Positions 700 through 23,154 of a DNA stretch of 23,824 nucleotides are shown here, one piece after another. The stretch is from a virus. The DNA is taken from the IMG/VR virus record IMGVR_UViG_3300028653_000056, positions 1-23,824 of that record; one strand, written 5' to 3'. The notes under the pieces were generated by a model that saw nothing but the letters and a program-made list of their open reading frames with translations, ran no database searches and had not been told where the DNA came from. Positions within the stretch are counted from its first letter, which is position 1, and each line of letters opens with the position of its first letter. A program made the position numbers and the translations under genes.

Positions 700-1538
700 G
701 ACACATCACTCAGGCCCATATGAATGCACTGGTAGAGCAGCTTCAGAAGGAGGCTGCTTTTCCACTATCTAACATTCGTAGGCTTATACCAGCCGTGCGG
801 GAGGGTCTTAGCAGCAGGATGAGCACCTACGGTGGTAAACTGGCCGTAGGTGCTGGTGCAGGAGCATTGGTAGGGGCTGGTACAGCGGAGCCTGGGGAGA
901 GGCTTCAAGGTGCTTCCAGAGGGGCACTAGTTGGTGGCGGATTAACTGGCATTGGCTTACTAGCTACCAAGGGTGGTAGAGAGGCAGCGAGTAAGGCAAC
1001 CAAGAAGTTCTGGGATAGGTCTAAGTACCAGTTCACAGGTCATGGTATAGAAGGTACGCCAGCGGAACGGCTTACCAAGGCCAGAGAACTGGGAGTGCTT
1101 CCGGAACTAGCAGTGAAGCCTAGTGCTTCAGATTTAACTAGAGCTGCCGCGCAGCAACACGCATTCGAACAAGGTTGGTTGACTGTGCCTGGTGCTGTGC
1201 ATGGAATGGTTACACATCCAGGTAAGATGTTGCACAACTCTTGGAATAGAATGGGGCAAACCGAGAAGGGGTTGACTGGTGCTGCTGGAGTTGGCATAGG
1301 ATTGGATGCTGCAAGACCCAGTGAGCCTGGTGGTCCCGGAAGAATAGAACGCACACTAGGTGATGCAGCCAGTACCGTAGGTTATACCGTGGGCCCTTCT
1401 GGGCTATTGCCTAGTTATCTGCTTGGACATTGGGCGGGGAAAGCAGGTGCGGGAGTCGGTAAAACTATAGGCAACTTAGTACCTAACTCAGCCGCTCAGG
1501 CTATGCCAGAAACTCTTATGCAGGGGAGTGTACAGTGA
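696..1538 (+). CDS. Gly/Ala-rich protein with glycine-zipper-like hydrophobic segment, upstream of portal
   Basis: This encodes about 280 residues. I start it at the ATG that overlaps the preceding stop (ATGA) rather than at an in-frame GTG 57 bases upstream, because the overlap arrangement recurs in this window. From about residue 45 to 95 there is a Gly/Ala-rich stretch with small-residue spacing (for example AVGAGAGALVGAG and GALVGGGLTGIGLL), typical of glycine-zipper hairpins that insert into or pack against membranes. A second Gly/Ala-rich part lies near the C-terminus. No enzyme motif is visible. It is coupled to the portal by a GTGA overlap. A membrane-active or internal virion protein involved in DNA entry is possible, but this is inference. 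Confidence 0.8.
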   Translation: MRHITQAHMNALVEQLQKEAAFPLSNIRRLIPAVREGLSSRMSTYGGKLAVGAGAGALVGAGTAEPGERLQGASRGALVGGGLTGIGLLATKGGREAASKATKKFWDRSKYQFTGHGIEGTPAERLTKARELGVLPELAVKPSASDLTRAAAQQHAFEQGWLTVPGAVHGMVTHPGKMLHNSWNRMGQTEKGLTGAAGVGIGLDAARPSEPGGPGRIERTLGDAASTVGYTVGPSGLLPSYLLGHWAGKAGAGVGKTIGNLVPNSAAQAMPETLMQGSVQ

Positions 1539-4500
1539 GCGTGGGTCTAGGTGGTGCAGACTCCTCTGCCCTCCGTTTTTCTAGAACTAGAGGACGTACC
1601 GGCAGCTCTTCCGATTACGGTCTGCAATACCCTAGCCCGTTCTTTGATATCGGGCAGACCTACTTGCCGGCAACGGTCAAGCAGATGTTCCGATGGTGCC
1701 GATACTACTTCTTGGTGAACCCTCTGATCAATGCGGTAGTCTCCAAGATGGCAGATTATCCCATTACAGACATCATTCTTGATACTGAGAAGCAGGACTT
1801 GAAGGATAGCTGGAATGAGTTTCTAAATGGGCAGCTCAGGTATCGTCCTTTTCAGATCGAAATAGGTTTGGACTTTTTCGCTTATGGTAACAGTCTTGTA
1901 AGTATCTTTTATCCGTTTGTAAAGATGCTTCGTTGCACTCGATGTGGTTTTGAGAAGCAAGCATCAGATGCTATCTACCGGTTCATGAATTTCGAGTTTC
2001 ACTGGCAGTGTGAGCAGTGCGATCATGCGGGCATAGCCAAGGTCAGAGATCACTATATTAAGGCACCCAAGGGTATCAGGCTACTCAGATGGAACCCGGA
2101 AGACATAGATATCAGGTACAACGACATAAGTGGGGAGTACGAGTACTACTATTCGATCCCAGTGCAGCTGAAGAACGATATCATAATAGGCAAAAAATCA
2201 GCGGTAGAAAGTATACCTCAACTGTTCATTGATGCTCTCCGATTGAGGAAAGCTGTCGTGTTCAGCAGGGACAACATCTACCATTTCAAACGTCCTACTC
2301 TCGCCGGTAAGGATAGAGGCTGGGGCACTCCTTTGATCTTGCCTGTGTTGAAGGACTGCTACTACCTTCAGATCCTCCGAAAAGCTCAAGAGGCTATATG
2401 TCTTGAGCATATTGTTCCTCTGAGAATGCTGTTCCCACAAGCTGGATCAGCCACTAGCGACCCGTTCTGCGTTGCATTAGATAGCTTTGTAGAGACCAGG
2501 GATGGGATCAAACCTGCTGGAGAGGTGCAGCAGGGTGAGTTTATGAAGAATCATCATGGTGAGTGGGAGCCGGTAAAGTGCATTCTCGATCGACCCATTC
2601 AACCTGGTGAGAAGTCATATGAATTTACCATTGCTTCTTTGTCTGCTTTCCCGTTCAAAGTTTCCGAAGAGCACCCTCTATTGGCTGTTAAACGGCCTGT
2701 ACCTTCTCGCGGTTATGATGGAATTGAAGAGCCGGATTTCATACAGGCACAATCTATAGAAAAGGGTGACTTTGTCTGTTATCCACGTAGACGAGTGACG
2801 TGGGATAGACTGGAGTTAGACCTGCACGACTACCATCCAGAACGTGCCTTTAGTGCAACATACGTCTACCGTCGCTTGAATCAGGAGGCTGCGGACATCT
2901 ATGAATATTTGGAGGAGAGTGGAGTACCAGAGTTCAAACATAGAGACAAAGCAACCTTCCTGGAGGAGCATGGTTGGACAGATCAAAACTATCTGAACGC
3001 TCGAAATGCGTTCACTCAGAGTGAGTCTATAGATCGAATACCTAGATTCTTACCAGTAACCGAAGATCTGGCTTACCTTATTGGCCTTTATGCAGCAGAG
3101 GGTAGTCCAAAAGATACTGGGGCATCTCTAGCTTTGAATTCTGCTGAAGAAGATATCATGGATCGAGTAGACTCCACATTGGCTGGAATGGGGTTCCAAC
3201 CTGGTCACAGATATACTAGAGAGCACTCAACTCAATATGATATTGGAGATGTTTTCCTGGGTGGTTTACTAGTACAATTGTGTGGAAAAGGCGCAGCAAA
3301 TAAACATCTACCAAGGTTGATTACAGAAGCTCCAGATCACATAGCTCTTAGAGCCGTGGAAGGTGTACTAGCTGGTGATGGCTGCTCTTTCAATACTTCT
3401 ACATGTAGAGAGGGATTGAAGACTGTAAGTCCACAGCTTGCTGTGGATGTCAGAACCCTTCTCCTATCTTTTGGTTTGATTGCGACAGTGCAAAAAGCCA
3501 TACCTGGCCCAGACGAGAGAGCCAAGCTGCCTTACTATCAAGTTAATCTTAACGGCTCTCAGGCGGATGAGTACTGTGCTTTAATTCAAGGCAAAGCACC
3601 TCAGATAGGTGTCAGTAGGTGTGGCTTTATACGTGGCGACTATGTTTATTTGCGTGTTAGTGCTCGCAGGGAAGCCCCAGAGGTGAAGACAGTTCGTGGC
3701 TTCCAGATGTCTCGATCAAAGTCCTTCTGTGTTGTTGGTGTAGCTACGCACAACACTACAGTGAATCTTCAGGACTGGCATGATCAGATCGCAGGAGAGA
3801 TCAGACGCTGGAGGGCGGATAATTCGTATATTCCTATACTCCCATTACCGATAGGTCAGGAGACAATAGGTGGTGATGGTCGGGCCCTACTATTGAGCCA
3901 AGAAATCAGGGTATGGTCCGAGCACATTGTTGCTGGTATGGGAGTTCCAAATGAGATCATATTTGGTGGTCTATCATACTCCGGATCAAATGTTTCTTTG
4001 CGTATGCTCGAGAACATGTTCTTGGGCTACCTGTCAGATCAGTTGTCTTTGCTAAGGTGGGTAATTGACAGGACGGCATCCTACCTAAGCTGGCCTAAGG
4101 TAGGAGCAAGGTTCAAGCCATTCAAGATGGCGGACGATCTACAGAGAAAGGCGTATCTCTTTCAGCTTAACCAAGCTGGCAAGATGTCTGATGAGTCTCT
4201 ACTTGCCGATGCTGATTTTGATTCGGCTAAAGAAGATAAGATCATGGAGATGGAAGCTTCTCGTCGTGTTTCAGCGATGAAGAAGCAAAGACTGTTACAG
4301 GCGGAGATGGAGGGAGAAGCCATGCTTGTTACAGCAAAGTGGCAGAACAAAGCACAGGCTAAGGCTATGGTAGAGCAAGCTGCCATACAGACGGAAGCAG
4401 CCAAGGAGCAGATGACTTTCCAGTCAGAGATGCAGAATGGGATGATGCAAGATCAGGTTGCGGCACAGACAGGCCAACCAGCACCGCAGAAGTCTCCAGA

Positions 4501-4864
4501 CTTAGCTTCTACTCCAAGAAACCCAGCTTTGATCTCACCTCCAAAAGAGATTACATCCCCACTTACCATGAGTAGCATTCAGAAGCATCCGGCTTCAGCT
4601 ACCAATTCAGATATCGCGAGCGGTACGAATGTAGACTTGTTGTATGTGGCGAGAAAGTTGGCGGACAAGATATCAAGGCTTACTCCTGCAGAGAAGCCGG
4701 TAACACTCAGACGTCTTCAAGAACGTAGTCCAGAGTTGCACGATACGGTTGTTGGGCTAATGATGAGTGGAGCGAACGGACCAACAGCCGCTTCAGCTGC
4801 TACTGCAAGATCTCTGCCTATGCAGAAACCTCCACAGCGCGGGGCTGAAGCGGCCTTGGTGTGA
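1535..4864 (+). CDS. Portal protein, interrupted by an intein
   Basis: Portal proteins form the dodecameric ring at the capsid vertex through which DNA is packaged and ejected. The GTG start at 1535 overlaps the upstream stop (GTGA) and has a strong AGGGGAG ribosome site at 1522-1528. The precursor has 1109 residues; residues 312-740 are an intein, leaving about 680. The N-terminal part contains an unusual zinc-ribbon-like CX2C-X21-CX2C (Cys134, 137, 159, 162). The C-extein has portal-like features: a region around GRALLLSQEIRVW, then LENMFLGYL, and a long Ala/Glu/Gln/Met-rich helix at about 900-985 followed by a Pro/Ser-rich tail. The portal call rests on overall sequence character and on linkage to terminase and spike genes. 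It is converging with minus-strand genes, with only 7 bases between the stops. Confidence 0.82.
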   Translation: MSVGLGGADSSALRFSRTRGRTGSSSDYGLQYPSPFFDIGQTYLPATVKQMFRWCRYYFLVNPLINAVVSKMADYPITDIILDTEKQDLKDSWNEFLNGQLRYRPFQIEIGLDFFAYGNSLVSIFYPFVKMLRCTRCGFEKQASDAIYRFMNFEFHWQCEQCDHAGIAKVRDHYIKAPKGIRLLRWNPEDIDIRYNDISGEYEYYYSIPVQLKNDIIIGKKSAVESIPQLFIDALRLRKAVVFSRDNIYHFKRPTLAGKDRGWGTPLILPVLKDCYYLQILRKAQEAICLEHIVPLRMLFPQAGSATSDPFCVALDSFVETRDGIKPAGEVQQGEFMKNHHGEWEPVKCILDRPIQPGEKSYEFTIASLSAFPFKVSEEHPLLAVKRPVPSRGYDGIEEPDFIQAQSIEKGDFVCYPRRRVTWDRLELDLHDYHPERAFSATYVYRRLNQEAADIYEYLEESGVPEFKHRDKATFLEEHGWTDQNYLNARNAFTQSESIDRIPRFLPVTEDLAYLIGLYAAEGSPKDTGASLALNSAEEDIMDRVDSTLAGMGFQPGHRYTREHSTQYDIGDVFLGGLLVQLCGKGAANKHLPRLITEAPDHIALRAVEGVLAGDGCSFNTSTCREGLKTVSPQLAVDVRTLLLSFGLIATVQKAIPGPDERAKLPYYQVNLNGSQADEYCALIQGKAPQIGVSRCGFIRGDYVYLRVSARREAPEVKTVRGFQMSRSKSFCVVGVATHNTTVNLQDWHDQIAGEIRRWRADNSYIPILPLPIGQETIGGDGRALLLSQEIRVWSEHIVAGMGVPNEIIFGGLSYSGSNVSLRMLENMFLGYLSDQLSLLRWVIDRTASYLSWPKVGARFKPFKMADDLQRKAYLFQLNQAGKMSDESLLADADFDSAKEDKIMEMEASRRVSAMKKQRLLQAEMEGEAMLVTAKWQNKAQAKAMVEQAAIQTEAAKEQMTFQSEMQNGMMQDQVAAQTGQPAPQKSPDLASTPRNPALISPPKEITSPLTMSSIQKHPASATNSDIASGTNVDLLYVARKLADKISRLTPAEKPVTLRRLQERSPELHDTVVGLMMSGANGPTAASAATARSLPMQKPPQRGAEAALV
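2468..3754 (+). other. LAGLIDADG intein in the portal protein
   Basis: This is a 429-residue in-frame insertion, portal residues 312-740. It begins with Cys312 (CVALDSFVETRDG, block A). The block B histidine is His380 in SEEHPLL. It ends in ATHN740, and Thr741 is the first C-extein residue. Two LAGLIDADG endonuclease helices are present: LAYLIGLYAAEG at 512-523 and GVLAGDG at 610-616, each with its catalytic acidic residue (Glu522, Asp615). Splicing would join DPF to TTVNLQDW. The exact boundaries are deduced from intein conservation, not from an empty-site homologue. All splicing residues expected of a class 1 intein are present, so it is probably active. Confidence 0.9.
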
Positions 4865-4871
4865 TCTACGT

Positions 4872-5264
4872 TCACCTCTTCTCTCTATCTGCCTCTAGTG
4901 TTGTCTGCTTTAGTTGTCTCCAGTGAAACCTGGAAACGCCCTGAGACTTGGCGTCTGCAAGTAGCAGCTGGAACTGCTTGAATACGATGTCTATTTTTTG
5001 TGCTTCTTCATCTTCGTGGTACTTATCTATTAGTATCTGTGCGATGAGCCTGGGATACCAGTAAGCCTCTATGTACTCTCGCTGCTTTCCATTGGGGTAT
5101 CTACTACCTCTAGGGTTGTAGATAACTGATAGCCCAGACTCCGCACTCATCAAGTGCAACCATACATTGATCGGATTCTCTACTACCAGCAGACACACGT
5201 CATTGATGTTTTTCCAGGTCACTTGAGGCAGCCGGGGATCTACTATGCCAGTCCCAGTTGCCAT
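4872..5264 (-). CDS. Unrecognised 130-aa protein, last gene of inverted cluster
   Basis: This encodes 130 residues with no zinc motif, membrane segment or domain I recognise. It looks soluble and mixed, with a helical, charged C-terminal half ending in Arg/Glu/Lys. The start is well supported: on the minus strand an AAAGGAG ribosome site lies about 9 bases upstream of the ATG. It follows the Cys-rich gene after a 19-base gap, so the two are probably co-transcribed leftward. It converges on the portal gene with no clear terminator between them. Confidence 0.8.
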   Translation of the reverse strand: MATGTGIVDPRLPQVTWKNINDVCLLVVENPINVWLHLMSAESGLSVIYNPRGSRYPNGKQREYIEAYWYPRLIAQILIDKYHEDEEAQKIDIVFKQFQLLLADAKSQGVSRFHWRQLKQTTLEADREKR

Positions 5265-5283
5265 TTTGATCTTACTCCTTTCT

Positions 5284-5715
5284 TTAGTCTCTGTTTTCTA
5301 ACACATCCAGAAGACAGCCTCTGCATAAGATCATGGGTTTAGCAGAGCCATCTTCCACGAACACCTCTTCCTCTAGATCTATGTGACCCAGAGTTACTTG
5401 ATTCCCATATGGGTTCATATCAAAGTCTTGCCCGCAGACAGCACAATATCTAGTGCTGTAGGTGTGCTCCTCCTTGTCGACTGCCCCATAACTCTGCAGG
5501 AAGCAGTCAGCATGACAGACTCTGATCTCAACATCAATCCCCTCAGGTAGTTCTTCTAGGGGTGCATCTGCCCATGCATGGAACACGAAAAAGCTTGGGT
5601 CCTTTTGCATGGGCAGTACTTTTCCATTTTCAATCACTACTATTTCTGCGTTACCTAGAGTGGCAGCGCAGAGAAGTTCACAGGGCGAATTCGGTCTGAC
5701 GATTAGTGCGCACAT
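5284..5715 (-). CDS. Cys-rich, probable zinc-binding protein
   Basis: This encodes 143 residues. The C-terminal half holds paired cysteines suited to a treble-clef or zinc-ribbon fold: Cys67/His68/Cys71, Cys91-X2-Cys94 (YCAVCG), His111 and Cys131-X2-Cys134 (LCRGC). The N-terminal half is predicted beta-rich, and the protein is acidic overall. No catalytic motif such as HNH is evident. The ATG at 5715 is the only start in this frame, because a stop lies 18 bases upstream. It begins inside the preceding membrane microprotein gene (38-base overlap) and has no good ribosome site, suggesting translational coupling. Possible roles are a DNA-, RNA- or protein-binding regulator; none can be assigned. 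Confidence 0.75.
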   Translation of the reverse strand: MCALIVRPNSPCELLCAATLGNAEIVVIENGKVLPMQKDPSFFVFHAWADAPLEELPEGIDVEIRVCHADCFLQSYGAVDKEEHTYSTRYCAVCGQDFDMNPYGNQVTLGHIDLEEEVFVEDGSAKPMILCRGCLLDVLENRD

Positions 5716-5782
5716 GTCTGATAGGAAGCATCAGTATTGTCATGAACGCTGCCAAGAAGCTGAAAACAAAGTGCCACATCAT
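5678..5782 (-). CDS. Small single-helix membrane protein (34 aa)
   Basis: This small ORF starts at the ATG that overlaps the stop of the acidic peptide gene (ATGA, 5779-5782) and ends inside the Cys-rich gene. The peptide begins MMWHFVFSFLAAFMTILML, a hydrophobic run long enough to span a membrane, followed by a basic tail with Arg and His (RHVRTNR). This polarity suggests an N-out, C-in single-pass protein. Coupling on both sides supports real translation. There is no SAR or lipobox signature. It could be a small holin-like, antiholin or host-interaction peptide; all of these are speculative. It is too short for most gene finders. Confidence 0.5.
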   Translation of the reverse strand: MMWHFVFSFLAAFMTILMLPIRHVRTNRQTEFAL

Positions 5783-5910
5783 TCTGCACCTTGTTCTGTC
5801 ACATCCTTTCCTTCCTCTGCTTGGTTTTGTTCACCGTCGATCTCTCCATTTATTTCATTTTGGAGATCGTCCATAGCTCCGCTCTTTTCGTTCGGGTCGG
5901 ACTCAAGCAT
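5779..5910 (-). CDS. Short acidic peptide (43 aa)
   Basis: This encodes 43 residues, very rich in Glu, Asp, Gln and Asn, with essentially no hydrophobic core; it is probably disordered. The ATG at 5910 has an AGGGG element about 9 bases upstream on the minus strand. A second in-frame Met (residue 13) is preceded by GGAG at a short distance. Its stop overlaps the ATG of the membrane microprotein. Highly acidic small phage proteins are sometimes DNA mimics or inhibitors of host nucleic-acid-binding proteins, but nothing here proves that. The composition and the overlap argue that it is coding. Confidence 0.5.
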   Translation of the reverse strand: MLESDPNEKSGAMDDLQNEINGEIDGEQNQAEEGKDVTEQGAE

Positions 5911-6028
5911 CTAACGTAACCCCTGTACTTAGGTGTTGCCTCTGTGTCAACCTAGACACAGCCAGAAGCAAAGCTTTTTCTTCTGTACTGTACTTATAAC
6001 GCTTTCTGACGCACAATTTCGTGCCCAT
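5903..6028 (-). CDS. Doubtful small basic ORF at head of inverted cluster (41 aa)
   Basis: This frame could encode a 41-residue basic peptide beginning MGTKLCVRKRYKYS and continuing with a helical Leu/Ala-rich segment. Its stop overlaps the start of the acidic peptide gene by 8 bases, in the style of the other couplings here. There is no convincing ribosome site upstream of the ATG at 6028. The segment also contains a 7-bp inverted repeat and an AT-rich hexamer that could be regulatory DNA instead. I list it only as a candidate. Confidence 0.25.
   Translation of the reverse strand: MGTKLCVRKRYKYSTEEKALLLAVSRLTQRQHLSTGVTLDA
5942..5961. promoter_or_regulatory. Inverted repeat in the divergent region upstream of the polymerase gene
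   Basis: CTGTGTC, a 6-base spacer, then GACACAG form a perfect 7-bp dyad. It lies between the leftward cluster and the rightward polymerase gene. There is no T tract after it, so an operator or RNA hairpin is more likely than a rho-independent terminator. TATAAC hexamers occur nearby at about 5994 and 6067-6072. None is paired with a well-spaced -35 box, so no host-type promoter can be called with confidence. Confidence 0.35.
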
Positions 6029-6085: not shown

Positions 6086-9000
6086 GTGGCACGTATTGTC
6101 CCGGCAGAGGGGTTTGATCTCCTCAAAGACCGAGTACAAAAAGCAGTCAGCGGTCTCTTTCCGATAGTAGGGAAGAAGAACACGCTAGAGTTACATGATG
6201 TAGCTGTCAGAGATGACCTGGACAGTGGCGATTTTAGGTCTCAGAAAGCGGCCAAGCTGGAGGGTAAGTCGTGGGCGGTACCAGTAGAGGCTACGTTATC
6301 CCTGAAAGACAATGCTACTGGTAGGGTAGTAGATAGGCAAAAGATCAAGCTGATGAGCTTGCCTAAGACTACTAATCGATACAGTTACATAGTAGATGGT
6401 CAGGAGTACCAGGTAGACAACCAGTGGCGGTTGAAGCCTGGCGTATACAACATGGTCAAGGCTGACGGTGCACTAGAGTCACATTTCAATGCCCCTGGTG
6501 GTGGATTCAAAGTTCATTTTGATCCAGCTTCTCATGCTTTCTCTATGGAGTATGGCAACTCCAACATACCACTCAAGCCACTGCTGCATGCTATGGGAGT
6601 GCCGGAAGAGGAGGTAGAGAAACGGTGGGGTAAAGATATAGCAGTCGCTAATCATGCGGACATGCCGAAGGCATTGTCCAAATTCTACAAGGCTGACACA
6701 GGTCTCAAGCCCTCATCCACCATGACTCCAGAAGATACTCGAGCACATTTCTGGCAAGTCATGGACAATACCAAGATGAATCCAGATGTCAACATGCTCA
6801 CGTTAGGTAAGGCACACTCCAACGTGACAGGTGCCGCGCTACTGGATGCATCAGACAAGCTACTCAAGATTTCTCGTGGTGATGCCAAGCCAGATCCTAG
6901 AGACGCCATCATGTTCAAAGACCTCCACTCTATGGAGGATTTCGCAGCTGAGAGAATAACTCGCGGCTCTAAAGACATACTACGTAAGATCGGAAATACA
7001 GTAGATAAGAAGGACAAAGTCAGAGATATCATAGCTCCAGATACCTTTAATAAGCATGTACGGTTGATGTTTACCAAGAACTCCCTGGCTTCAACACCCA
7101 GTCAAACCAATCCTCTTGAAATGATCTCAGCCCAGTTCAAAACTACCATCACAGGGGAGGGCGGTATCAAGAGTGAACATACGGTATCTGATGAGGCAAA
7201 GTTGATAGACCCGTCTCACTTGGGCTTCTTGGACCCTATACATACTCCGGAAGGAAAAGATACAGGCATCACTTTACGCCTTCCCATAGGTGTGACCAAG
7301 AAAGATCACGATGTTACCATCAAGATGTACAACCTCCATACAGGCAAAAATGAGGATGTTAACCCTACTATTGCTTACAAGTCCCACGTAGTTCTACCAG
7401 ATCAAGTAAAGTGGGTGGATGGTAAACCAGTACCTATTGGGCCCTCTATCAAGATAAGCGGTATCGAGAATGAGATTTATGATGGCTCTATGAAGGGTGC
7501 AGACTATGTGATGCGAGACCCAATGCAAATGTTTTCATTTGCATCGAACCTTATTCCGTTCATGCCCGCAGATCACCCCAATAGAAGTACCATGGCCGGC
7601 AGACAGATGGAGCAGGCAGTATCTCTGCTACATAGAGAGGCACCTCTTGTTCAGAGTTTGGCTGGCGCACATAGCTTCGAGCACATGGTGGGTGGTTTTG
7701 CTAGTCATCATACACGAGATGATGGCACAGTTACTCAGATCAAACCAGATGCCATAGTCATCGAGGGAGAAGACGGAAAAAGGCGCGAGGTACATATTTA
7801 CGATCATTTTCCGTTGAACGAGGATAAAGCATTCTTACACTCTACGCCACTTGTAAAGGTTGGGGATAAGGTAAAGGCTGGGCAGATAATAGCGGATACC
7901 AATTTCAGTAGGGGTGGCGTGTTGGCGATGGGTAACAACCTACGAGTTGGTTTCATGCCATACAAAGGCTTGAATTATGAAGATGGTATTGTAGTCACAG
8001 AGAGCGCAGCTAAAAAACTTACCTCCGAGCATCTACACAGGCACACAATAGAAAGAGATGTATCACATGTTTTGGATAAGCGAAAATTCCAGGCGTATAT
8101 ACCTACCGGAATGAACAGATCCCAGGCTGATAAGCTAGATGATGAGGGTGTGATCAAACCGGGCACAGTAGTGATGCCTGGCGATACTCTAATAGCCGCT
8201 CTTCGTGCTTCAAACGAATCAGAGAAGCGCGAGGATGTGCAACTATCCAAGTTGCACAAATCTATTGTACGACCATTCAAAGATGCAAGTGTCACATGGG
8301 ACAACGACTACCCAGGAGTAGTGAAAGAGGTAGTTAAGACTGGGGCCGATGTTGCTGTTCACGTAAAGACAGAAGAGCCTCTAGAGATCGGTGACAAGAT
8401 TTGCGGTCGCCACGGCAACAAGGGCATAGTCACCTGCCACGATGAGTCAACTGAGATATTGACAGATCAAGGTTGGAGATACTTTAAGGATCTTGACAGA
8501 ACAGAGTTGATCTGTACACGTAATATTCTAGGTGAGATAGAATATCAACAGCCTACAGCCTATATAGATCAGCCGCACAAGGGAAGGATGTACAAGTATG
8601 CTGGGCGCAGGTTGGATGTTCTTTGTACCCCCGAACACAATCACTATGTTCGTGGTCGAGGGCAGGAACAGTTTAAGCTGTTGTCTGCGGAGAAATGTTT
8701 TGGTTTGCCAAAGATACACGTGCGTACTGGTAAATGGTATGGAGTTGATCTAGACAAAATCGTTATTCCAGGCAGGCCACGTAACAGTAATCATCAGGCT
8801 GAAGAATTTTGTGAATCTAGGGAATATGACGCTGACGATTTTCTAGAATTCTTTGGTTATTGGATTACAGAAGGTTGTCTGGGCAATGATTCGCATATTA
8901 CCATTGCCCAGACAAAAGAGATACACCCGGACGTGTATGTTAAGATCACAGCTGTGTTACAGCGTATGGGGTATAGTACTTGTGAACAACCTACTGTAAT

Positions 9001-12000
9001 CGTTATTTCTGATCCAAGACTACACACTTGGTTAAAGCAATTTGGTAAGGCTAAGGCGAAGTTTATTCCACGTGATTTCATGATGGTCTCACAGAGGCAG
9101 TTACGTATTCTCGCAGATGCTCTGTTTGAGGGTGACGGTGGGGTCTATTACAGAGAGAAAGATAATCACACTAGGTATGAACTATTTACATCATCACAGA
9201 GATTATCTGACGACTATCAAGAACTGGCACTAAAGCTTGGTATGTCTGCCAATGTCAAGCCTCAGAAAGGAGAATACGGAACTGAATACGTAGTACGTTG
9301 GTCTCTGAAGGATGAGGTGTGGACTAATAACGATCGTAGATTTGATAATGAGAGTTGGGTAGATTATGTTGGTCGAGTCTACTGCGTGGATGTACCTAAT
9401 CATGTGATCTATGTGCGCAGAAATGGCATTCCGGTATGGTCCGGCAACTGCATCGTACCAGATCATGAGGCCCCATACACTAAGGATGGCAGGCCCCTAG
9501 ATGTGCTATTAAATCCACTGGGGGTGACTGGTAGAACTAACCTTGGTCAGGTACTAGAGGTTGCTGCAGGTAAGATTGCGGAGAAGACGGGCAAGACCTA
9601 CTTTACTAAGAACTTCAAGCCGGATGCAGATTTACATGCTCAGGTCACACAAGACCTGGCTAAGCATGGATTGACAGACAAAGAAACCGTCTTCGATCCT
9701 ATGAACGGAAGACCCATGGGTGATGTTCTCGTGGGCCCCATGCATATGCTCAAGCTTCATCATCAAGTGGAGAAGAAACTAAGTGCTAGAGCTTTAGGCT
9801 ACGGCTATGCCTATGACAGAAACAAAATACCTCAAGGTGGTGGCCCACACGGTGCTCAGTCTTTAGGTGTACTGGGTTTATACGCCATGCTGGGGCATGG
9901 AGCAGTTGCCAACCTGCGCGAGATGAACACTTGGAAAAGCGATGCAGGGCAGGGAGATCAGTTCTGGACTGCTCTGCAAGCTGGGGAAATGCTTCCTACA
10001 CCTAAACCTACGTTTGCATATAATAAGTTTATCAGCTTGATCAAGGGTCTGAATGTGAACGTGGAGAAGACTGGTAACAGCTTGATACTTTCTCCGATGA
10101 CGGATAAGCAAGTACATGAGATGAGCAACGGAGAGCTCAAAGACCCATCCAAAATGACAATTGCTAAGACCATGCGGCCTGAACCAGGTGGTCTCTTTGA
10201 TCCCAAAATTACGGGTGGTTTGGAAGGAGATCGGTGGTCACACTTTGTTTTGCCTGAGGCATTTCCAAACCCAGTGTTTGAGGGGGCTATAGTAAAACTG
10301 ACTGGTATCAAGACCAGTCAGTTTGATGGATTGATTGGAGGCACCTTAGCTTACGATCCTGCTACTGGTAAAATTGGCGACCCTTTGAAGATGAAGGGCG
10401 GATTAGTAGGAGGTAAGGCTTTCAATGCATTGCTGGGTAAGATTGACGTGAAAAAAGACCTAGCAGCTGCCTTGGAGAAGTTACAGAAGCCTACACTCAA
10501 GGGTTCTTACTTGGACGACGCCAATAAGAGAGTCAAGTTCTTGAAGGTGCTGGATAGATTAGGCGTCAGTCCAAAAGACGCATACATGATGCAGAGTGTG
10601 CCTGTGCTTCCACCATCCATGAGGCCACTACCCATCCTTCCAAATGGTACGATCAGTGAGGAGGACATCAATGGCCTGTATAAGAGCCTGCATTTGACTG
10701 CATCCAGATACGCAAAGATGTCTCCACTAATACCAGACGAAGATCAGTCTAAGGTGGAGCTAAGGCAAGAAGTGTATGATGGCCTACGTGCACTGTCTGG
10801 TATAGGTAGTTTCCCCCGTGGTAATCGTAGAGGTATCTTGGACTACATTGCGGGTAAGCGATATGTAGATGGAGTAAAGACTGGCCCTCCAAAAGAGGGG
10901 TTCTTCCAGGAGCAGTTGGTTACACGTAAGCAAGACATGACCATGCGCGGAACGATCATTCCTGAGCCGTCTCTAAGTTTGGATGAGGTAGGTATTCCTA
11001 AGTCTGCGGCACTCGAGTTGTACAAGCCTTTCGTTATTCGAGAGCTACGAAATTTAATGGGCATTTCCCCACTTCAAGCGCAGCAGAAGATGAGTGAGGG
11101 CGGAGATATAGTAGATCGAGCGTTGGACAGGGCTATACTTAGCCGTCCTATATTGTTGAAGCGAGACCCTGTACTACATAAGTATGGTATTCAAGCATTC
11201 AAGCCTCGTATCGTCAGCGGAAAAGCAGTACAGATTCATCCCCTAGTAACTAGCGGTTTCAATGCTGACTTCGACGGCGACTCTGTCCTAGGCGATATTC
11301 TAGTTGCACATCTAGATAAGACTGGGTGTGCTGAGGGCATGCCGCACACTGGAAGACTTTTTTCATATAAGATCATAGATTTAGCAAACTTCCCTCACCT
11401 GCCTGATCCGATTAGGACAACCGAGACAGGTGTTACTGTTTATGCTGTACCGCCCGGTACATTTGTTCCGGCATTTGATGGTGGCGCTTTCGATATGTCC
11501 GAGGTAACTGAATACTCGGTGCACCCGAACTGCGAGGAATGGAGGATAGAAACGGAAAGAGGCCGGGAAATGTTTGTATCCGAAGATCATAGCCTGGCGC
11601 TCCTTAACCCGGCCACCTTAGAAGTCTATGATGCTGTGCCTTCAACTGCAGAAGGTATGTGGTTACCGACTTTGCGGTATTTGAATCCTGGCCCAGCACC
11701 GGTACCGTCTTTGCCGGGCGTCGCAACAAAAAATGATAGGGCGCTAGCCATGCTGGAGGATGTGCCTGCTACATTTGATGTTGGTTGGTTTCTAGGTACA
11801 ACAGTAGGTGATGGTTGGGTTTCACAACGAGGCCCAAGTAAAGACTTTTTAGGCAAGCTCAAGGATGAGTCGGTAGTAGAGAGCCGTTCTGTGTTTCTTG
11901 CATATGGGGCAGACGGTAGGGACGTTGCAGATAAGTGGGATAATGTTGGTAAGTACATTTCTCAGAAAACACGTACGGGGGATATCTCAGCACCGCATAA

Positions 12001-14812
12001 GTTTGGGGAATACGAATGTCAGTCCTTCAAGTCAAGCATATGTTCTACTGCTCTAGGTCTGTGGCTAGAGCCCTTGATTGGAAAGGGTGCTGCTAACAAA
12101 CACCTACCTGATGGCTTTCTACATTTCCCTGTAGAGTTTCGCCAGGGGCTTTTCTGTGGTTTGATTGATACAGATGGTACTGTAAACTGGAGTAACGGAG
12201 TTAACAAAGCTCCGCAGTTCTCTATGTCATACAGCACTGTAAGTCCGGACTTGACAGAAAGTATACAACTTCTTGGTTTGTCTTTAGGGCTAGTACCTAG
12301 TTGTACAGCTACCCATACTCCGGCCGGCAAACCATCTTGGGTTATTACATTCTCTATTCGTACTGTGCAGGATGCTGATTGGATCAAGCTGGAACATACT
12401 GACAAGAGGGCAGCCCTAGAAAAGTTGCGAGACTCTAGTAAAGTAATATACGGTAGATCTGATCAAGTACCACTTCTAGATGCTGCCAAAGAAGAGTTGC
12501 TGGAGCACTTGCGTACTCTTGGTGCTGCCAAACGTAAAGGGCATGGCCATAATGCAGCCGCTTTTTCTAGCTACACAGTCCTCAGACAATCCAATGGCGG
12601 TGTAAGCCGTATCACTGTGCAGAATTTGAATGATTTGATTGATCAGTCTACCCGTTCAGAGTATCTCTCTAGGTGGTTTGCTCTCGCTATGAATGCAGAT
12701 GTTGGTTGGGATAGGGTAGTAGCCTCCAAAGCGACTGGTGAGATAAAAACCATGTACGATCTAAAGGTCCCAGGACCTTGGACCTTTACCATGGCTAATG
12801 GTGCTGCTGTTTGGGACTGTATGGGAGCTTTTGTACCAGTCGGTTCAGAGGCTGTTGCTGAAGCACACAAGATGTTTCCCTCTAACAACCTGTTTAGTCC
12901 TGCCACTGGTAAGCTGATGTACTCTCCTTCTGGCGAGAGTAGATTAGGGTTGTATGGGCTTACACGTGCAGGGGCTGCTACTAGTCACGAGTTCTCTACC
13001 ATTCAAGATGTAGAAACTGCGGTGAGAAAGGGCACTGTCAAGCTAACAGATCAAGTGAAGGTTGGTGGCATACACTCTACCGTAGGTAGGTTCATGGTGG
13101 CTGGAGCTTTACCGGAGAGTATGCGAGGAGAGTATCTTGGTAGGAAGGAACCTCTCAATGCATCAGCACAAGAGGAGCTGATGACTCGCATTGCAAAGGA
13201 ACACAAGAACGAGTATGGGCAGTCTATAAACAAGCTCAAAGATCTGGGAAACATGTGGGCCACTCAGACTGCGTTCTCTGTTGGTATGTCAGAGTTAGCT
13301 CCTGATAGAGAAGCAAGGAATAGGATTCTTGCCAAAGCGGACGATCAGGTATCCAAGTTAACTGGTGCAACCAAAGATGCAAAGACTGTTGAGATATATG
13401 CTAAAGCAACAGATGAGATGGATAAACACTTTAGGGCTATTTCGGAAGAGGGTAACAACCTGATGCTGTTGCACAACATGGGTATGAAGGGTGGTACGAA
13501 TACTATTCGTCAGATACGTGCCGCGCCGATGCTCATGGCTAATCACAAAGGAGAGATTATACCTAGCCCTGTACGAAAGTCTTATGCCGAGGGACTAGAT
13601 ATTGCCGGCTATTGGACAGCCACAAGTGGTGGCCGTAAGGGTGTTATCCAAAAGGTTCAGGCAGTTCAAGAACCTGGTCATATCACCAAGCAGGTAATGA
13701 ACTCTACTATGAATAATCTCATCTTAGATCATGACTGTGGAACAGATAAGGGAATTTCTCTTTCTATTGATGAGAAGGACATTTTAGACCGATTCACAGC
13801 CGCAGATGTCAAGCTCGGTAATAGGATTATCAAGTCGGGCACGCTTATTACACCAGAACTCAGGAGTGCTTTCCGGAACAACAACGTGGGCAAGGTAGTC
13901 GTCAGGTCTCCACTTCGTTGTTTGCATGGACCTGGACTGTGTCAGAAATGTTTTGGCTATACTGAGGATGGTCGATTGCCAGAAGTAGGATTAAATGTAG
14001 GTGTACTTGCTGGTCAAGCCATAGGTGAGCGCGCTACTCAATTGGCTATGAAGGCTTTTCACCAAGGGGGCACTGCATCATCCAAGTCTTCACTAGTAGA
14101 TCAGTTTAACCAAGTCCAGGACTTGTTGCTGTTCCCAAAGCAGTTGCCAGGCTCAGCTACCCTCAGCACCGTATCTGGAAAGGTGACTAAGATTGAGAAA
14201 GACTCAGCCGGTGGTCACAACGTGATCATAGAAGAAGAACGTCACTACATCCCACAGTCGAGAGGGGTACCAGTGTATGACAAGAAGCCGTTGGCGGTCG
14301 GTACAGAGGTCAAGAAAGGTATGCCCATTTCAGAGGGCCGCGTGAACCCACACGAGATGTTGCCCTTAACTGGTATTGAACCAGTGCAAGCCCTATTGGC
14401 CAGCAATCTTGCTGACATGTATGAGGGGCAGGGAATTCGTAGACGTAATCACGAGGTTGTGATCAAAGCTCTTACTAACCTCACCAAGATTAAAGACGCA
14501 GGTTCTTCTACTCATTACATTCGTGGCGACTTCGCGCCCACCACATTTGTGTCCTCACTGAATAGGGGGATGGCTAAGGGCGAGCATCCCATAGTTCATG
14601 AGCCTATACTTAAGGGCGTCAATGTTTTGCCGTTAGATATGCAGGAAGACTGGATTGCAAAACTCAACCACGAGGGTCTGGCAAATACTGTAATCGATGC
14701 TGCACAGCAAGGGTGGAGATCAAACCTGCATAGCCTCCATCCAGTGCCTGCTGTGGTATATGCTGCAGAGCTAGGAAAACCCCCCAAAGATTTGCCAGGA
14801 TACTTCTACTAA
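6086..14812 (+). CDS. Fused beta-beta' DNA-directed RNA polymerase with two inteins
   Basis: The 2908-residue precursor fuses homologues of both catalytic subunits of cellular RNA polymerase. Beta motifs: NRSTMAGRQ (499-507), YEDGIV around Glu632-Asp633, GRHGNKG (774-780), the GRPLDVLLNPLGV region after intein 1, and LREMNTWKSD (1277-1286). Beta' begins near RPEPGGLF (1364-1371) and continues with a MRPLP element (Arg1513), HKYGIQAF (His1698) and the Mg2+-chelating NADFDGD (1726-1732). It then has a bridge helix (GMKGGTNTIRQIR, 2466-2478), a zinc site (Cys2551, 2612, 2619, 2622) and a trigger loop (MKAFHQGG, with His2659). The beta' N-terminal zinc site is absent. Removing intein residues 784-1121 and 1733-2244 leaves about 2058 residues. 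It would transcribe phage genes; its place among structural genes raises the possibility of virion packaging. No sigma-like protein is seen nearby. Confidence 0.95.
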   Translation: MARIVPAEGFDLLKDRVQKAVSGLFPIVGKKNTLELHDVAVRDDLDSGDFRSQKAAKLEGKSWAVPVEATLSLKDNATGRVVDRQKIKLMSLPKTTNRYSYIVDGQEYQVDNQWRLKPGVYNMVKADGALESHFNAPGGGFKVHFDPASHAFSMEYGNSNIPLKPLLHAMGVPEEEVEKRWGKDIAVANHADMPKALSKFYKADTGLKPSSTMTPEDTRAHFWQVMDNTKMNPDVNMLTLGKAHSNVTGAALLDASDKLLKISRGDAKPDPRDAIMFKDLHSMEDFAAERITRGSKDILRKIGNTVDKKDKVRDIIAPDTFNKHVRLMFTKNSLASTPSQTNPLEMISAQFKTTITGEGGIKSEHTVSDEAKLIDPSHLGFLDPIHTPEGKDTGITLRLPIGVTKKDHDVTIKMYNLHTGKNEDVNPTIAYKSHVVLPDQVKWVDGKPVPIGPSIKISGIENEIYDGSMKGADYVMRDPMQMFSFASNLIPFMPADHPNRSTMAGRQMEQAVSLLHREAPLVQSLAGAHSFEHMVGGFASHHTRDDGTVTQIKPDAIVIEGEDGKRREVHIYDHFPLNEDKAFLHSTPLVKVGDKVKAGQIIADTNFSRGGVLAMGNNLRVGFMPYKGLNYEDGIVVTESAAKKLTSEHLHRHTIERDVSHVLDKRKFQAYIPTGMNRSQADKLDDEGVIKPGTVVMPGDTLIAALRASNESEKREDVQLSKLHKSIVRPFKDASVTWDNDYPGVVKEVVKTGADVAVHVKTEEPLEIGDKICGRHGNKGIVTCHDESTEILTDQGWRYFKDLDRTELICTRNILGEIEYQQPTAYIDQPHKGRMYKYAGRRLDVLCTPEHNHYVRGRGQEQFKLLSAEKCFGLPKIHVRTGKWYGVDLDKIVIPGRPRNSNHQAEEFCESREYDADDFLEFFGYWITEGCLGNDSHITIAQTKEIHPDVYVKITAVLQRMGYSTCEQPTVIVISDPRLHTWLKQFGKAKAKFIPRDFMMVSQRQLRILADALFEGDGGVYYREKDNHTRYELFTSSQRLSDDYQELALKLGMSANVKPQKGEYGTEYVVRWSLKDEVWTNNDRRFDNESWVDYVGRVYCVDVPNHVIYVRRNGIPVWSGNCIVPDHEAPYTKDGRPLDVLLNPLGVTGRTNLGQVLEVAAGKIAEKTGKTYFTKNFKPDADLHAQVTQDLAKHGLTDKETVFDPMNGRPMGDVLVGPMHMLKLHHQVEKKLSARALGYGYAYDRNKIPQGGGPHGAQSLGVLGLYAMLGHGAVANLREMNTWKSDAGQGDQFWTALQAGEMLPTPKPTFAYNKFISLIKGLNVNVEKTGNSLILSPMTDKQVHEMSNGELKDPSKMTIAKTMRPEPGGLFDPKITGGLEGDRWSHFVLPEAFPNPVFEGAIVKLTGIKTSQFDGLIGGTLAYDPATGKIGDPLKMKGGLVGGKAFNALLGKIDVKKDLAAALEKLQKPTLKGSYLDDANKRVKFLKVLDRLGVSPKDAYMMQSVPVLPPSMRPLPILPNGTISEEDINGLYKSLHLTASRYAKMSPLIPDEDQSKVELRQEVYDGLRALSGIGSFPRGNRRGILDYIAGKRYVDGVKTGPPKEGFFQEQLVTRKQDMTMRGTIIPEPSLSLDEVGIPKSAALELYKPFVIRELRNLMGISPLQAQQKMSEGGDIVDRALDRAILSRPILLKRDPVLHKYGIQAFKPRIVSGKAVQIHPLVTSGFNADFDGDSVLGDILVAHLDKTGCAEGMPHTGRLFSYKIIDLANFPHLPDPIRTTETGVTVYAVPPGTFVPAFDGGAFDMSEVTEYSVHPNCEEWRIETERGREMFVSEDHSLALLNPATLEVYDAVPSTAEGMWLPTLRYLNPGPAPVPSLPGVATKNDRALAMLEDVPATFDVGWFLGTTVGDGWVSQRGPSKDFLGKLKDESVVESRSVFLAYGADGRDVADKWDNVGKYISQKTRTGDISAPHKFGEYECQSFKSSICSTALGLWLEPLIGKGAANKHLPDGFLHFPVEFRQGLFCGLIDTDGTVNWSNGVNKAPQFSMSYSTVSPDLTESIQLLGLSLGLVPSCTATHTPAGKPSWVITFSIRTVQDADWIKLEHTDKRAALEKLRDSSKVIYGRSDQVPLLDAAKEELLEHLRTLGAAKRKGHGHNAAAFSSYTVLRQSNGGVSRITVQNLNDLIDQSTRSEYLSRWFALAMNADVGWDRVVASKATGEIKTMYDLKVPGPWTFTMANGAAVWDCMGAFVPVGSEAVAEAHKMFPSNNLFSPATGKLMYSPSGESRLGLYGLTRAGAATSHEFSTIQDVETAVRKGTVKLTDQVKVGGIHSTVGRFMVAGALPESMRGEYLGRKEPLNASAQEELMTRIAKEHKNEYGQSINKLKDLGNMWATQTAFSVGMSELAPDREARNRILAKADDQVSKLTGATKDAKTVEIYAKATDEMDKHFRAISEEGNNLMLLHNMGMKGGTNTIRQIRAAPMLMANHKGEIIPSPVRKSYAEGLDIAGYWTATSGGRKGVIQKVQAVQEPGHITKQVMNSTMNNLILDHDCGTDKGISLSIDEKDILDRFTAADVKLGNRIIKSGTLITPELRSAFRNNNVGKVVVRSPLRCLHGPGLCQKCFGYTEDGRLPEVGLNVGVLAGQAIGERATQLAMKAFHQGGTASSKSSLVDQFNQVQDLLLFPKQLPGSATLSTVSGKVTKIEKDSAGGHNVIIEEERHYIPQSRGVPVYDKKPLAVGTEVKKGMPISEGRVNPHEMLPLTGIEPVQALLASNLADMYEGQGIRRRNHEVVIKALTNLTKIKDAGSSTHYIRGDFAPTTFVSSLNRGMAKGEHPIVHEPILKGVNVLPLDMQEDWIAKLNHEGLANTVIDAAQQGWRSNLHSLHPVPAVVYAAELGKPPKDLPGYFY
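8435..9448 (+). other. LAGLIDADG intein in the beta half of the RNA polymerase
   Basis: This 338-residue insertion (polymerase residues 784-1121) directly follows GRHGNKGIVT. Block A is CHDESTEILT with Cys784. Block B is TPEH with His851. The C-terminus is WSGN1121, followed by Cys1122. Penultimate Gly replaces the usual His. LAGLIDADG helices are FLEFFGYWITEG (919-930) and ALFEGDG (1012-1018), with acidic residues intact. Splicing restores GNKGIVT-CIVPDHEAPY, which aligns with bacterial beta. The +1 Cys replaces the residue (usually Lys) found there in bacterial beta. Confidence 0.92.
11282..12817 (+). other. Atypical Ser1...Asp LAGLIDADG intein in the beta' catalytic loop
   Basis: This 512-residue insertion (polymerase residues 1733-2244) directly follows NADFDGD. 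It starts with Ser1733 in SVLGDILVA, matching block A but with Ser in place of Cys. Block B is SEDH with His1835. Block F is MYDLKVPGPWTF. The C-terminus is VWD, with Asp2244 where Asn is usual and Trp where His is usual; Cys2245 follows. LAGLIDADG motifs are VGWFLGTTVGDG (1899-1910) and QGLFCGLIDTDG (2020-2031). Splicing yields NADFDGD-CMGAFVPVG, aligning with bacterial NADFDGDQMAVHVPLS. It is the longest of the four inteins, with roughly 150-200 residues between the second motif and block F. Confidence 0.9.
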
Positions 14813-19884: not shown

Positions 19885-20088
19885 TGGTTGACGAGTTAGG
19901 GCCACCACAACTCTTGCAGCTATTTTGAACCTTCCCCCACCCACACCGTTAGTGCTGGAGTCAAGATTCCCTTACTCGTCAGTTTTGTATCTTTTTGGGC
20001 GAGCATTCTAGGAATGGTGTGGTGGCTATCTTCCATTCCTATCAATATCCTTATAGCACACTACGCCAACAATTTTTCACGGATCGTC
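19885..20088 (+). promoter_or_regulatory. Gap before terminase, probable leader region
   Basis: About 200 bases with no convincing gene. It contains a C-rich run (CTTCCCCCACCCACACC) near 19930 and a T-rich stretch near 19990. An ATG at 20014 could extend the terminase by 25 hydrophobic residues, but it has its AGGA directly against the start codon. No promoter with normal spacing is evident. Confidence 0.3.
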
Positions 20089-23000
20089 ATGGCAACAATT
20101 ACGTTAGCGGAAGCCGATCTTCTCAGATCTGCGCACACTATACCAATCTCATACTGTTTTGATGATCACGGGGTGGTGGAACCCGTCTTCGATTATTCTG
20201 AAGATGGTGAGGCCGTTGACTTTGGTATTGATGAGGAACCAGAAGATGTGTGCGCAGCAAATGCCGTAACATCCTCGTCGATGTTAGGAGTATCTCCATC
20301 TGAATTTGCAGAAACAGCTATACGCATACCTGAAGCTGGGCGCATATCGGATTTCTCCTTTACAGGTAGAGAGTATCTACGAAAGGTATATGACACTCCG
20401 GCAAACAAAATACTCTTACTTTGCGGACGCCAGACTGAAAAAACGACAACGCTGGGCAATCGTATGCTCTGCTATTCTGCACTGGTTAACAACTTTAGAT
20501 CTTTGTACGTAGCTCCGTCAGCAGAGCAGGCAAAGGTGTTTTCTAATGATCGTATCAAAGATCCTATAGAAGCATCGCCAATGCTTCGGGCCTACACAAC
20601 TTCGGCTATCAACCAGGCCGTGTTTTTCAAGAAGTTCATAAACTATTCTCAAATACGACTTCGATACGCATACCTCAATGCCGATAGATGCTTGGTCGGC
20701 TCCTCACGTTTGCAGTTAGCAGATGGATCTTTTCCGGCAATAAAGAATTTGGTAGGTAAGTCCATTAATTTGATCTCTGCGGATGATCACGGAAGGCCAT
20801 TAGTTACACGCGGGGTTCGGGTAAGGTGCACTGGTATTAGAGCTGTGGTTGACGTCTTTACTTCATTTCCCATACCGTTAGGGACTACGCTTGATCATGA
20901 ATACTTTACCAAAAGAGGTTGGGTACGTGCGGACTCCCTAAGAAAGGGCGATTTTGTTGCTGCTCCACATGCAGGTATGCTGTGTACCGCAAATACCTAT
21001 ATAGGTGTGGATTTTGCTTGGCTACTGGGGGCTATGACTGCCGAAGGTAGTAGTGTGCTACCGTCAGATGTAAAGTTCACCAACACTGATGTTGATTTCT
21101 TGACCGACTTTGAAGCACACAGTAAAGCAGTTGGGCTCGTTCTAGGCAGTAGGATACCTGATAAGCGTTCAGCTAAAGTTGCGTACTCATTGAGTCTGTA
21201 TTCAGATACTCGTGGGCAAGGAATAAACGGGGTCAAGAAGAGGCTGTGGGAGCTAGGAGAATTTGGCAAGGATGCTTTAACTAAACGTGTACCCAGCTGT
21301 ATTTTCACAGCTACATTAGTCGAGAAGTGTGCATTTCTACACGCGCTATTTCGTGGTGATGGCTGGTGCTGTAACGAAAGTTCTTTTGCCCGCGCAGGAT
21401 ATTCCACATCATCCTATGGTTTGGCAGAAGACCTTATATTCATACTGTGGTCCTTAGGAGTACGCTGTGCGCTTCGTAAAAAGAAGCCAAGTACGAAACA
21501 TGCATCCGTAAGTTACGTGATCGATTTATCTACTACGGCTACGCACAAGCTTTTATCTTTGATCGGAAATTTTAGGGCCGAGTTACCTACTCGTGCTACA
21601 CCAGGTAAATCCATCTTAGATCGAATTCCTTTCTCGTATACACAGTTGCGAGAGCATTTGAAATCTGGATACGGGCTTAGTACACATGCAGCGTGGAAGA
21701 AGCATCGTATTCAATTGCGCCCTGGAAACAGGAGGGACAGCATAGGGCGCGGAGTACTTCTAAGTATAGCTAACAAGCTTAAAGATAAGTTCCTACTAGA
21801 TATGTGCGACCCTTCAATTTCTTGGGTAGAAGTAAAGTGTATCAAGAAGAGATCTAAAAAAGAGACGGTGTATTGCTTAGATGTGCCAAACCATAAACGA
21901 TTTGTGGCTAATGGTTTGGTAGTACATAATTGTCGTGGTATTCCTGCGGATCAAGTTTTGATCGATGAGATTCAGGATATCTTGGTCGACAATATCCCAG
22001 TCATAGAACAATGTGCGTTTCACTCTTCGTACAAATTGTTCATGTACTCGGGCACACCTAAATCCGTAGACAATACTATTGAGTACTACTGGAGCGAGTT
22101 CTCTTCACAGAATGAGTGGGTAGTACCTTGTGAAAGGCATGGATTACCTAGTGATTCAAGTACTTGGCATTGGAACGTATTGGCGGAGAAGAACATAGGG
22201 TCTTTAGGCTTGATCTGTGATAAGTGTGGTGAATCTATATCCGCACGTCACCCTAAGGCGCAATGGGCCGCTATGAATCCCATGCGGCCGGACAACAAGG
22301 ACAAGGTAACTTTCGAGGGATACCGCATTCCTCAAATCATGGTTCCGTGGGTAGATTGGGCGGAGGTACTAATAGCGCAAGAGCAATATTCTCGTTCACA
22401 GTTCATGAACGAAAAGCTCGGCAGGTCTTATGACTCCGGTATACGCCCAATTACCAGAGCACAGTTACAGGCTGTATGTAAGCCTGAGATCGTACTAGGA
22501 GATATCGAATCCTTCCGCAGATTAGCGCAGGGTATATCAGTCTATGCAGGCATAGACTGGGGTGGAGGTACTGACAGCAGCTTCACGCATATTTCGTTTG
22601 GTGGTTATTTTGGTACCGGTAACTTCTCCATCATTTGGTGTCACAGATTTACCGGCCAAGATTTAGATCCAGAGAAGCAGATCGAACTGATCACACAGAT
22701 GTTGTCCCAACTAAATGTCAAGCTTGTGGGCGTAGACTATGGTGGCGGTTTCTACCCCAATGACAAGCTCATCAAACGTTTTGGTTCCCGTAAGATAATG
22801 AAGTTTCAATACAATCCCCGGCAGAAAAAGAAGATTTACTGGGAACCGAACCTGCAACGTTGGATGTGCCACCGTACGGAAGTTATGAGTGACGGGTTTA
22901 ATGCACTGAAGGCAAAGAAGATAGATCTCCCGAGATGGGAAGATTATCAAGACCCTCACGGTACCGACATACTCAATATTTTCACAGAGTACAACGTGCG

Positions 23001-23154
23001 TGTCCGTATGAATGAGTACAAGAAGCCGCCTGGAAAGACTGATGATGCATTTCACTCTATGCTTCTGTGCCTGCTAGCTTCTTGTATAGAGCGACCACGC
23101 CCAGACATCTTTGCACCTATGCAGGACAGTGGTTTGATGGAGAATTATGGGTAA
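20089..23154 (+). CDS. terL: Large terminase subunit (ATPase-nuclease), interrupted by an intein
   Basis: TerL is the packaging motor: it translocates DNA through the portal and cuts concatemers. From the ATG at 20089 the precursor is 1021 residues; residues 201-614 are an intein, leaving about 607, normal for the family. The ATPase Walker A-like motif is CGRQTEKTTT at 112-121, with Glu117 where Gly is usual. Walker B is VLIDE, with Asp626-Glu627. A Cys681...Cys710-X2-Cys713 group may bind zinc. RNase H-like nuclease acidic residues are Asp823 (GIDWGGG), Asp883 (GVDYGGG) and Asp985/986 (KTDDAFH). I prefer this start because the upstream extension is an odd hydrophobic segment, though the ribosome site here is weak. 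Confidence 0.93.
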   Translation: MATITLAEADLLRSAHTIPISYCFDDHGVVEPVFDYSEDGEAVDFGIDEEPEDVCAANAVTSSSMLGVSPSEFAETAIRIPEAGRISDFSFTGREYLRKVYDTPANKILLLCGRQTEKTTTLGNRMLCYSALVNNFRSLYVAPSAEQAKVFSNDRIKDPIEASPMLRAYTTSAINQAVFFKKFINYSQIRLRYAYLNADRCLVGSSRLQLADGSFPAIKNLVGKSINLISADDHGRPLVTRGVRVRCTGIRAVVDVFTSFPIPLGTTLDHEYFTKRGWVRADSLRKGDFVAAPHAGMLCTANTYIGVDFAWLLGAMTAEGSSVLPSDVKFTNTDVDFLTDFEAHSKAVGLVLGSRIPDKRSAKVAYSLSLYSDTRGQGINGVKKRLWELGEFGKDALTKRVPSCIFTATLVEKCAFLHALFRGDGWCCNESSFARAGYSTSSYGLAEDLIFILWSLGVRCALRKKKPSTKHASVSYVIDLSTTATHKLLSLIGNFRAELPTRATPGKSILDRIPFSYTQLREHLKSGYGLSTHAAWKKHRIQLRPGNRRDSIGRGVLLSIANKLKDKFLLDMCDPSISWVEVKCIKKRSKKETVYCLDVPNHKRFVANGLVVHNCRGIPADQVLIDEIQDILVDNIPVIEQCAFHSSYKLFMYSGTPKSVDNTIEYYWSEFSSQNEWVVPCERHGLPSDSSTWHWNVLAEKNIGSLGLICDKCGESISARHPKAQWAAMNPMRPDNKDKVTFEGYRIPQIMVPWVDWAEVLIAQEQYSRSQFMNEKLGRSYDSGIRPITRAQLQAVCKPEIVLGDIESFRRLAQGISVYAGIDWGGGTDSSFTHISFGGYFGTGNFSIIWCHRFTGQDLDPEKQIELITQMLSQLNVKLVGVDYGGGFYPNDKLIKRFGSRKIMKFQYNPRQKKKIYWEPNLQRWMCHRTEVMSDGFNALKAKKIDLPRWEDYQDPHGTDILNIFTEYNVRVRMNEYKKPPGKTDDAFHSMLLCLLASCIERPRPDIFAPMQDSGLMENYG
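20689..21930 (+). other. LAGLIDADG intein in the large terminase
   Basis: This 414-residue insertion (residues 201-614 of the precursor) starts with Cys201 (CLVGSSRLQLADG, block A). Block B is TTLDH with His270. It ends ANGLVVHN614, followed by Cys615. LAGLIDADG helices are FAWLLGAMTAEG (309-320) and HALFRGDG (418-425), both with acidic residues. Splicing joins YLNADR to CRGIPADQVLIDE, placing the junction only eight residues before Walker B. All canonical splicing residues are present. Confidence 0.93.

Follow-up and report, generated by a model that had tools for sequence, protein, structure and literature searches.

Four small leftward genes, flanked by a portal-like gene and by the gene for a fused beta-beta' RNA polymerase (RNAP), appear, with somewhat better than even probability, to form a separate operon with a phage promoter to itself, a core maintained in the lineage and an exchangeable tail (the 130-aa gene). 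They lie in a virus record of 23,824 bases, possibly a fragment, which in its whole length is called the window here. The position of the genes, their overlaps, their conservation and the promoter-like motif that they share with other genes can be read directly from the DNA. The motif would be a real promoter, active earlier than, or separately from, the rightward structural genes, and the ORF overlaps would couple translation. The core comprises three protein families at a fixed site beside the phage RNAP, all nameless in the libraries searched, and gene callers may overlook two of them for their shortness.

Layout of the leftward genes

The long ORFs around the cassette run rightward. Between the portal-like gene (1535-4864, plus strand), which is convergent with the cassette, and the RNAP gene (6086-14812, plus strand), which is divergent from it, lie four ORFs, all on the minus strand. 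The first encodes a 43-aa acidic microprotein (5910-5779) with a helix-like short conserved motif, DLQNEINGEI. The second encodes a 34-aa single-span membrane microprotein (5782-5678), and its ATG overlaps the acidic stop in an ATGA-type junction. The third encodes a 143-aa Cys-rich zinc-knuckle protein (5715-5284; CxxxC, HxxC, CxxC, CxxC) and overlaps the membrane ORF out of frame by 38 nt. The variable tail of the operon is the gene for a 130-aa protein without family match (5264-4872), whose ORF ends 7 nt from the stop of the portal-like ORF. The inverted orientation in the portal-polymerase gap, both kinds of overlap and all four products had been described in the original prediction and are seen as described, and the pair statistics below place the ORFs above chance. 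Its right end, at 6028, needs correction: a basic ORF of 41 aa (6028-5903, minus strand) has its ATG there and is probably not a gene, since it begins upstream of the inferred promoter and its counterpart in locus L005 hits a stop at once.

The match of the portal-like ORF to a PHROG portal is weak (E 0.024); the ORF has a LAGLIDADG_3 domain, and its position is that of the annotated portal in Salmonella phage Arash. The RNAP ORF has Pfam Rpb2 and Rpb1 domains and two LAGLIDADG_3 stretches. LAGLIDADG or intein-like insertions were seen in these two ORFs and in terL (20014-23154). The RNAP and portal ORFs of L005 (2059 and 680 aa; 2908 and 1109 aa in the window) lack such insertions.

A core kept in related phages

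Relatives of the 143-aa protein were found at 5 loci, which represent three phages because L002/L003 and L005/L006 are near-identical here, and the cassette occupies the same place in all 5. With L008 and L013-L016 added from an RNAP scan (67 loci), the three ORFs follow one another as acidic, membrane, zinc-knuckle in nine near sequences (the window and eight loci), the zinc-knuckle ORF of L014 being incomplete as it runs off the contig end. The membrane and zinc-knuckle ORFs overlap by 38-41 nt in the five closest sequences.

Removal of one sequence that was too short and of duplicates reduced 68 sequences to 51 non-redundant regions upstream of RNAP. By a rule composed after several loci had been viewed, an overlapping acidic and membrane pair is present on the minus strand in 24 of the 51 regions, on the plus strand in none and in 0/1020 dinucleotide shuffles. 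Profiles trained on these 24 loci were run over all 51 regions. At 6 bits the membrane peptide was detected in 39/51 (15/27 of those held out), never on the plus strand and in 1/255 shuffles; loosening to 4 bits gave 3 plus-strand and 6 shuffle matches. The acidic peptide was detected at 6 bits in 32/51 (8/27 held out), with no match on the plus strand or among 255 shuffles. An iterated profile found a zinc-knuckle relative in 33 of 49 regions. Small zinc-knuckle ORFs were found by rule at 10 loci (plus-strand control, 1), of which 7 were retained; the candidates of L017, L059 and L071, which resemble the antisense of the portal gene, were dropped. A second zinc-knuckle scan yielded 3 loci, all on contigs found before.

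The 143-aa protein has a profile match to the zinc-knuckle family of a more distant set of loci, group B. The near and group B families align in hhalign with 89.6% probability over 113 columns (reversed control, 0.2%), a comparison that is not fully independent because the group B alignment was iterated with near members present, which were then removed. Relatives with the core have RNAP identity down to 42% over the first 771 residues. Because most related fragments examined have the core in this position, it has the look of a long-established functional part of these phages and not of a recent insertion.

Turnover of the tail

The 143-aa protein is 91% identical to that of L010 and 86% to that of L009, whereas the identity of the window's 130-aa protein to those of the same two phages is just 33% and 32%, and the L010 version is closer to that of L012; the cassette is therefore mosaic. 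Relatives of the 130-aa protein are 23-37% identical in 6 aligned loci, L016 is without the gene and L013 has an apparent second ORF related to it. From these comparisons, the 130-aa gene and extra genes are gained, lost and swapped. Comparison across related phages for gain or loss, which had been suggested as a check on the original prediction, gives a core that recurs and a tail that turns over.

The original prediction regarded the cassette as typical of morons or host-interaction genes. The mosaic downstream genes, gained or lost, would suit a moron-like accessory unit that was recently inserted whole and aids host interaction, as would absence from Arash and Vibrio phage D69, which loss would explain as well. 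Like phage morons, the cassette has small inverted genes, an orientation independent of its neighbours, its own putative promoter (a motif by sequence) and variable content. It differs from them in having a core that is found again and again at a single site in the lineage: the presence among close relatives is not sporadic, the pair and the zinc-knuckle ORF being found in nine of nine. The leftward unit of its own and the downstream turnover are thus retained from that prediction, but recent insertion of the whole is unlikely, since most of the relatives examined have the core in this position.

Several minor features were noted in this part of the locus. By eye, L009 carries an additional gene (8110-8756, minus strand), rich in SIEAGG-type repeats, that lies between its 130-aa gene and the portal. 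A strong hairpin separates the zinc-knuckle and 130-aa genes in L010, L008 and L012 (GGCAGCCCAC..GTGGGCTGCC; L012 version GGTAGCCCAC..GTGGGCTACC) and is absent from the window and L009. A frameshift, due either to assembly error or to decay, splits the zinc-knuckle ORF in one member of an otherwise near-identical pair of contigs (L006/L007 against L005/L012). No relation was seen between the 130-aa family and the group B 205-aa family, and a scan of viral contigs for the 130-aa protein gave 15 pattern-matching stretches, of which 0 were confirmed.

A motif shared by leftward genes

The promoter-like motif (5986-6020, minus strand) has GAAA at 6020-6017, TATAAG at 5998-5993 and an inferred start at 5986. 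Twenty sites define it as AA-N17-GnTATAAG-N5-TR (T, then purine). The pattern ATAAG-N5-TR occurs less than 200 nt from the RNAP start in 39/51 regions, never on the plus strand and in 4/255 shuffles; by this rule it is missing in 12/51. Nine whole records hold the motif 43 times opposite to RNAP, 2 times with RNAP and 2 times as the reversed pattern; each of the seven IMG/VR records among them includes a locus used for training or one nearly identical to it, cassette sites make up 4 of the 43, and G002 and G003 have sequence in common. Arash (7 sites) and D69 (11 sites) serve as the independent test, and there 18/18 sites are opposite to RNAP. For thirteen of the 18, the distance to an annotated leftward CDS downstream is 21-70 nt, and for three it is 121, 218 and 224 nt; one site is inside a CDS and one is without a nearby leftward CDS. 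A consensus scan found no sigma-70-type promoter for the cassette. As the motif before the unit also precedes leftward genes and is strand-biased, the cassette belongs, by its sequence, to a leftward regulon.

Early action of the cassette, which had been proposed in contrast to the late genes around it, is plausible and partly contradicted. The gene 121 nt from one motif site encodes an Srd anti-sigma factor, which would fit early expression. D69 site 109331, followed by a gene and then an annotated endolysin, and Arash site 101753, upstream of gp174 and then a 'structural protein', would not fit, and these two of the 18 sites reduce the confidence in early timing. The motif is testable in Arash, an isolated relative, and would help to show gene timing in phages with cellular-type polymerases. 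It was also seen before a leftward Cys-cluster gene about 7-7.7 kb upstream of RNAP in L012 (~2252), L013 (~2507) and L015 (~2871), all on the minus strand.

The inferred 5' leader (5911-5986, minus strand) would begin at the foot of a hairpin and contains two supported hairpins (5985-5963 and 5961-5942) and a possible third that includes the ribosome-binding GGGG. The first two retain pairing in 74/74 cells over five sequences with three both-side changes, which 18/500 shuffles match, so that support is modest. Folding z ranges from -1.34 (window) to -3.97. Such hairpins may be a general feature, since other leftward transcripts also seem, by eye, to begin with one. The DNA pattern of the third hairpin occurs in 36 stretches of viral_contigs, of which 3 matched window proteins, all from phages already in the set. 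Rfam gave no cassette match near threshold. A CTGGTA element upstream of several RNAP genes was dropped, having only scattered other matches in three sequences.

Predicted roles of the products

Conserved coding in relatives, on which the original prediction depended, is borne out by purifying selection on the 143-aa ORF (dN/dS 0.05-0.09; 4/7 pairs calculable) and the membrane ORF (0.11-0.41; 7/7 pairs). The 130-aa ORF gave 0.15-0.16 (2/7 pairs) and the acidic ORF 0.11-0.73 (6/7 pairs), the upper value of which counts against the operon reading.

In an alignment of 24 loci, the acidic peptide has a ten-residue motif with mostly hydrophobic residues at positions 2, 6 and 10, and this short helix may dock on a protein partner. 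The membrane peptide, single-span and 25-50 aa long in most relatives, would tether a complex to the inner membrane; binding to nucleic acid or protein would fall to the zinc-knuckle protein. Judged by this anatomy, the three core proteins might jointly act either on the host or on transcription of the phage. A narrower version is quite unlikely: the two microproteins, acidic and membrane, would together be a dedicated regulator, tethered to the membrane, that controls the multi-subunit RNAP of the phage itself or its early-to-late switch and is encoded divergently from this polymerase and kept in the lineage.

The cassette products have no naming match in any library searched, and INPHARED holds no record encoding a relative of the 130-aa protein or the L012 zinc-knuckle protein at E 0.01. 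Weak PHROG matches of the L012 zinc-knuckle protein (best E 0.0014, a family of unknown function) and of the membrane peptide (E 0.17) were set aside. The model of the 143-aa protein (pLDDT 87.5) has no Foldseek match in PDB or BFVD at E <= 0.001, which says nothing against a known fold, and its best VIA Z is 3.1; that of the 130-aa protein is poor (pLDDT 56.9). An RNAP query in genome_contigs gave no confirmed match and hence no host link.

The unit might instead serve mainly in transcription control, the leftward RNA timing the late genes by interference with portal mRNA and the peptides being minor. It is convergent with the portal-like gene across the 7-nt gap and divergent from RNAP, and the window has one more leftward motif, ahead of a candidate RNA that is antisense to the start of terL. 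What makes this reading very improbable is that the 143-aa and membrane ORFs are conserved as proteins and that, by eye, terminator-like hairpins stand before the portal end in L017, L018, L021 and L063. Least probable of all is a lysis-timing cassette with the membrane microprotein as a small holin-like lysis protein. The single short span in most relatives would suit it, as would the D69 motif site preceding the gene that adjoins the endolysin. Against it, the membrane peptide is accompanied by an acidic peptide and a zinc-knuckle protein, the surroundings of the unit yielded no endolysin, and the 130-aa and 143-aa proteins match no lysis family, although an adjacent endolysin or spanin gene may escape such matching.

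Distant relatives and known phages

Distant loci were inspected by eye, 12 at first, then 5 fully and 19 in part. Most have the ATAAG-type motif on the minus strand; a first micro-ORF is seen, and a membrane micro-ORF in most. Two layouts occur. The portal lies 0.2-0.8 kb upstream of RNAP in the first (e.g., L017, L018, L021, L036, L037, L042, L063 and L071) and about 4.2-5.6 kb away in the second, group B, with larger minus-strand genes between (extremes: 8.9 kb in L023 and 1.6 kb in L066). In group B, pairs of genes for a MoxR-type AAA+ protein and a DUF2201 metallopeptidase/VWA protein follow the zinc-knuckle gene within the inverted block (families from L058, the one locus tested); such pairs are absent from the window's cassette. 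In marine-type loci a comparable short motif is retained (by eye), but the acidic tail and the membrane peptide are missing, a point against the operon reading.

The N-terminal part of the RNAP is 32-34% identical to that of Arash and Vibrio phages D69, D148 and D181. As in the window, the portal of Arash and D69 lies just upstream of RNAP, and both have the same motif solely on the strand opposite to RNAP. Their portal-RNAP gap holds, however, a 92- or 97-aa ORF on the RNAP strand (L157 8655-8933; L158 8616-8909) and no inverted unit, which is therefore not essential to all such phages.

The mReC phages, as described in passages of the mReC paper, are tailed phages from metagenomes that carry beta and beta' sequences of cellular type amid structural genes. 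The window likewise encodes beta and beta' homologues (Pfam domains), but as one fused ORF. Its terL matches PF05876 (GpA_ATPase), whereas mReC terL, where Pfam matches (17 proteins), is given there as PF03237. A capsid protein of PF07068 is a further mReC trait; the window yielded no capsid gene. The words 'promoter', 'sigma' and 'intein' are absent from the text of the mReC paper, and the inverted unit is not described in the passages. The literature searched contained no description of it either, which is no proof of absence from print.

A candidate RNA antisense to terL

A candidate structured RNA lies antisense to the terL start (window 20055-19863, minus strand), with TATAAG at 20055-20050, an inferred start at 20043 and a terminator-like hairpin near 19880-19865. 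TATAAG is present at the terL start in 25/25 relatives examined (of 28, several of them identical; L154-L156 were left out), and the terminator-like hairpin in 16/19 sequences, window included. Rfam gave no match near threshold for this region. Core folding reaches z <= -2 in 12/19 sequences, is -1.27 in the window and is near 0 in four. The loop of the 5' hairpin, GCCACCACA, could pair with a downstream TGTGGTGGC.
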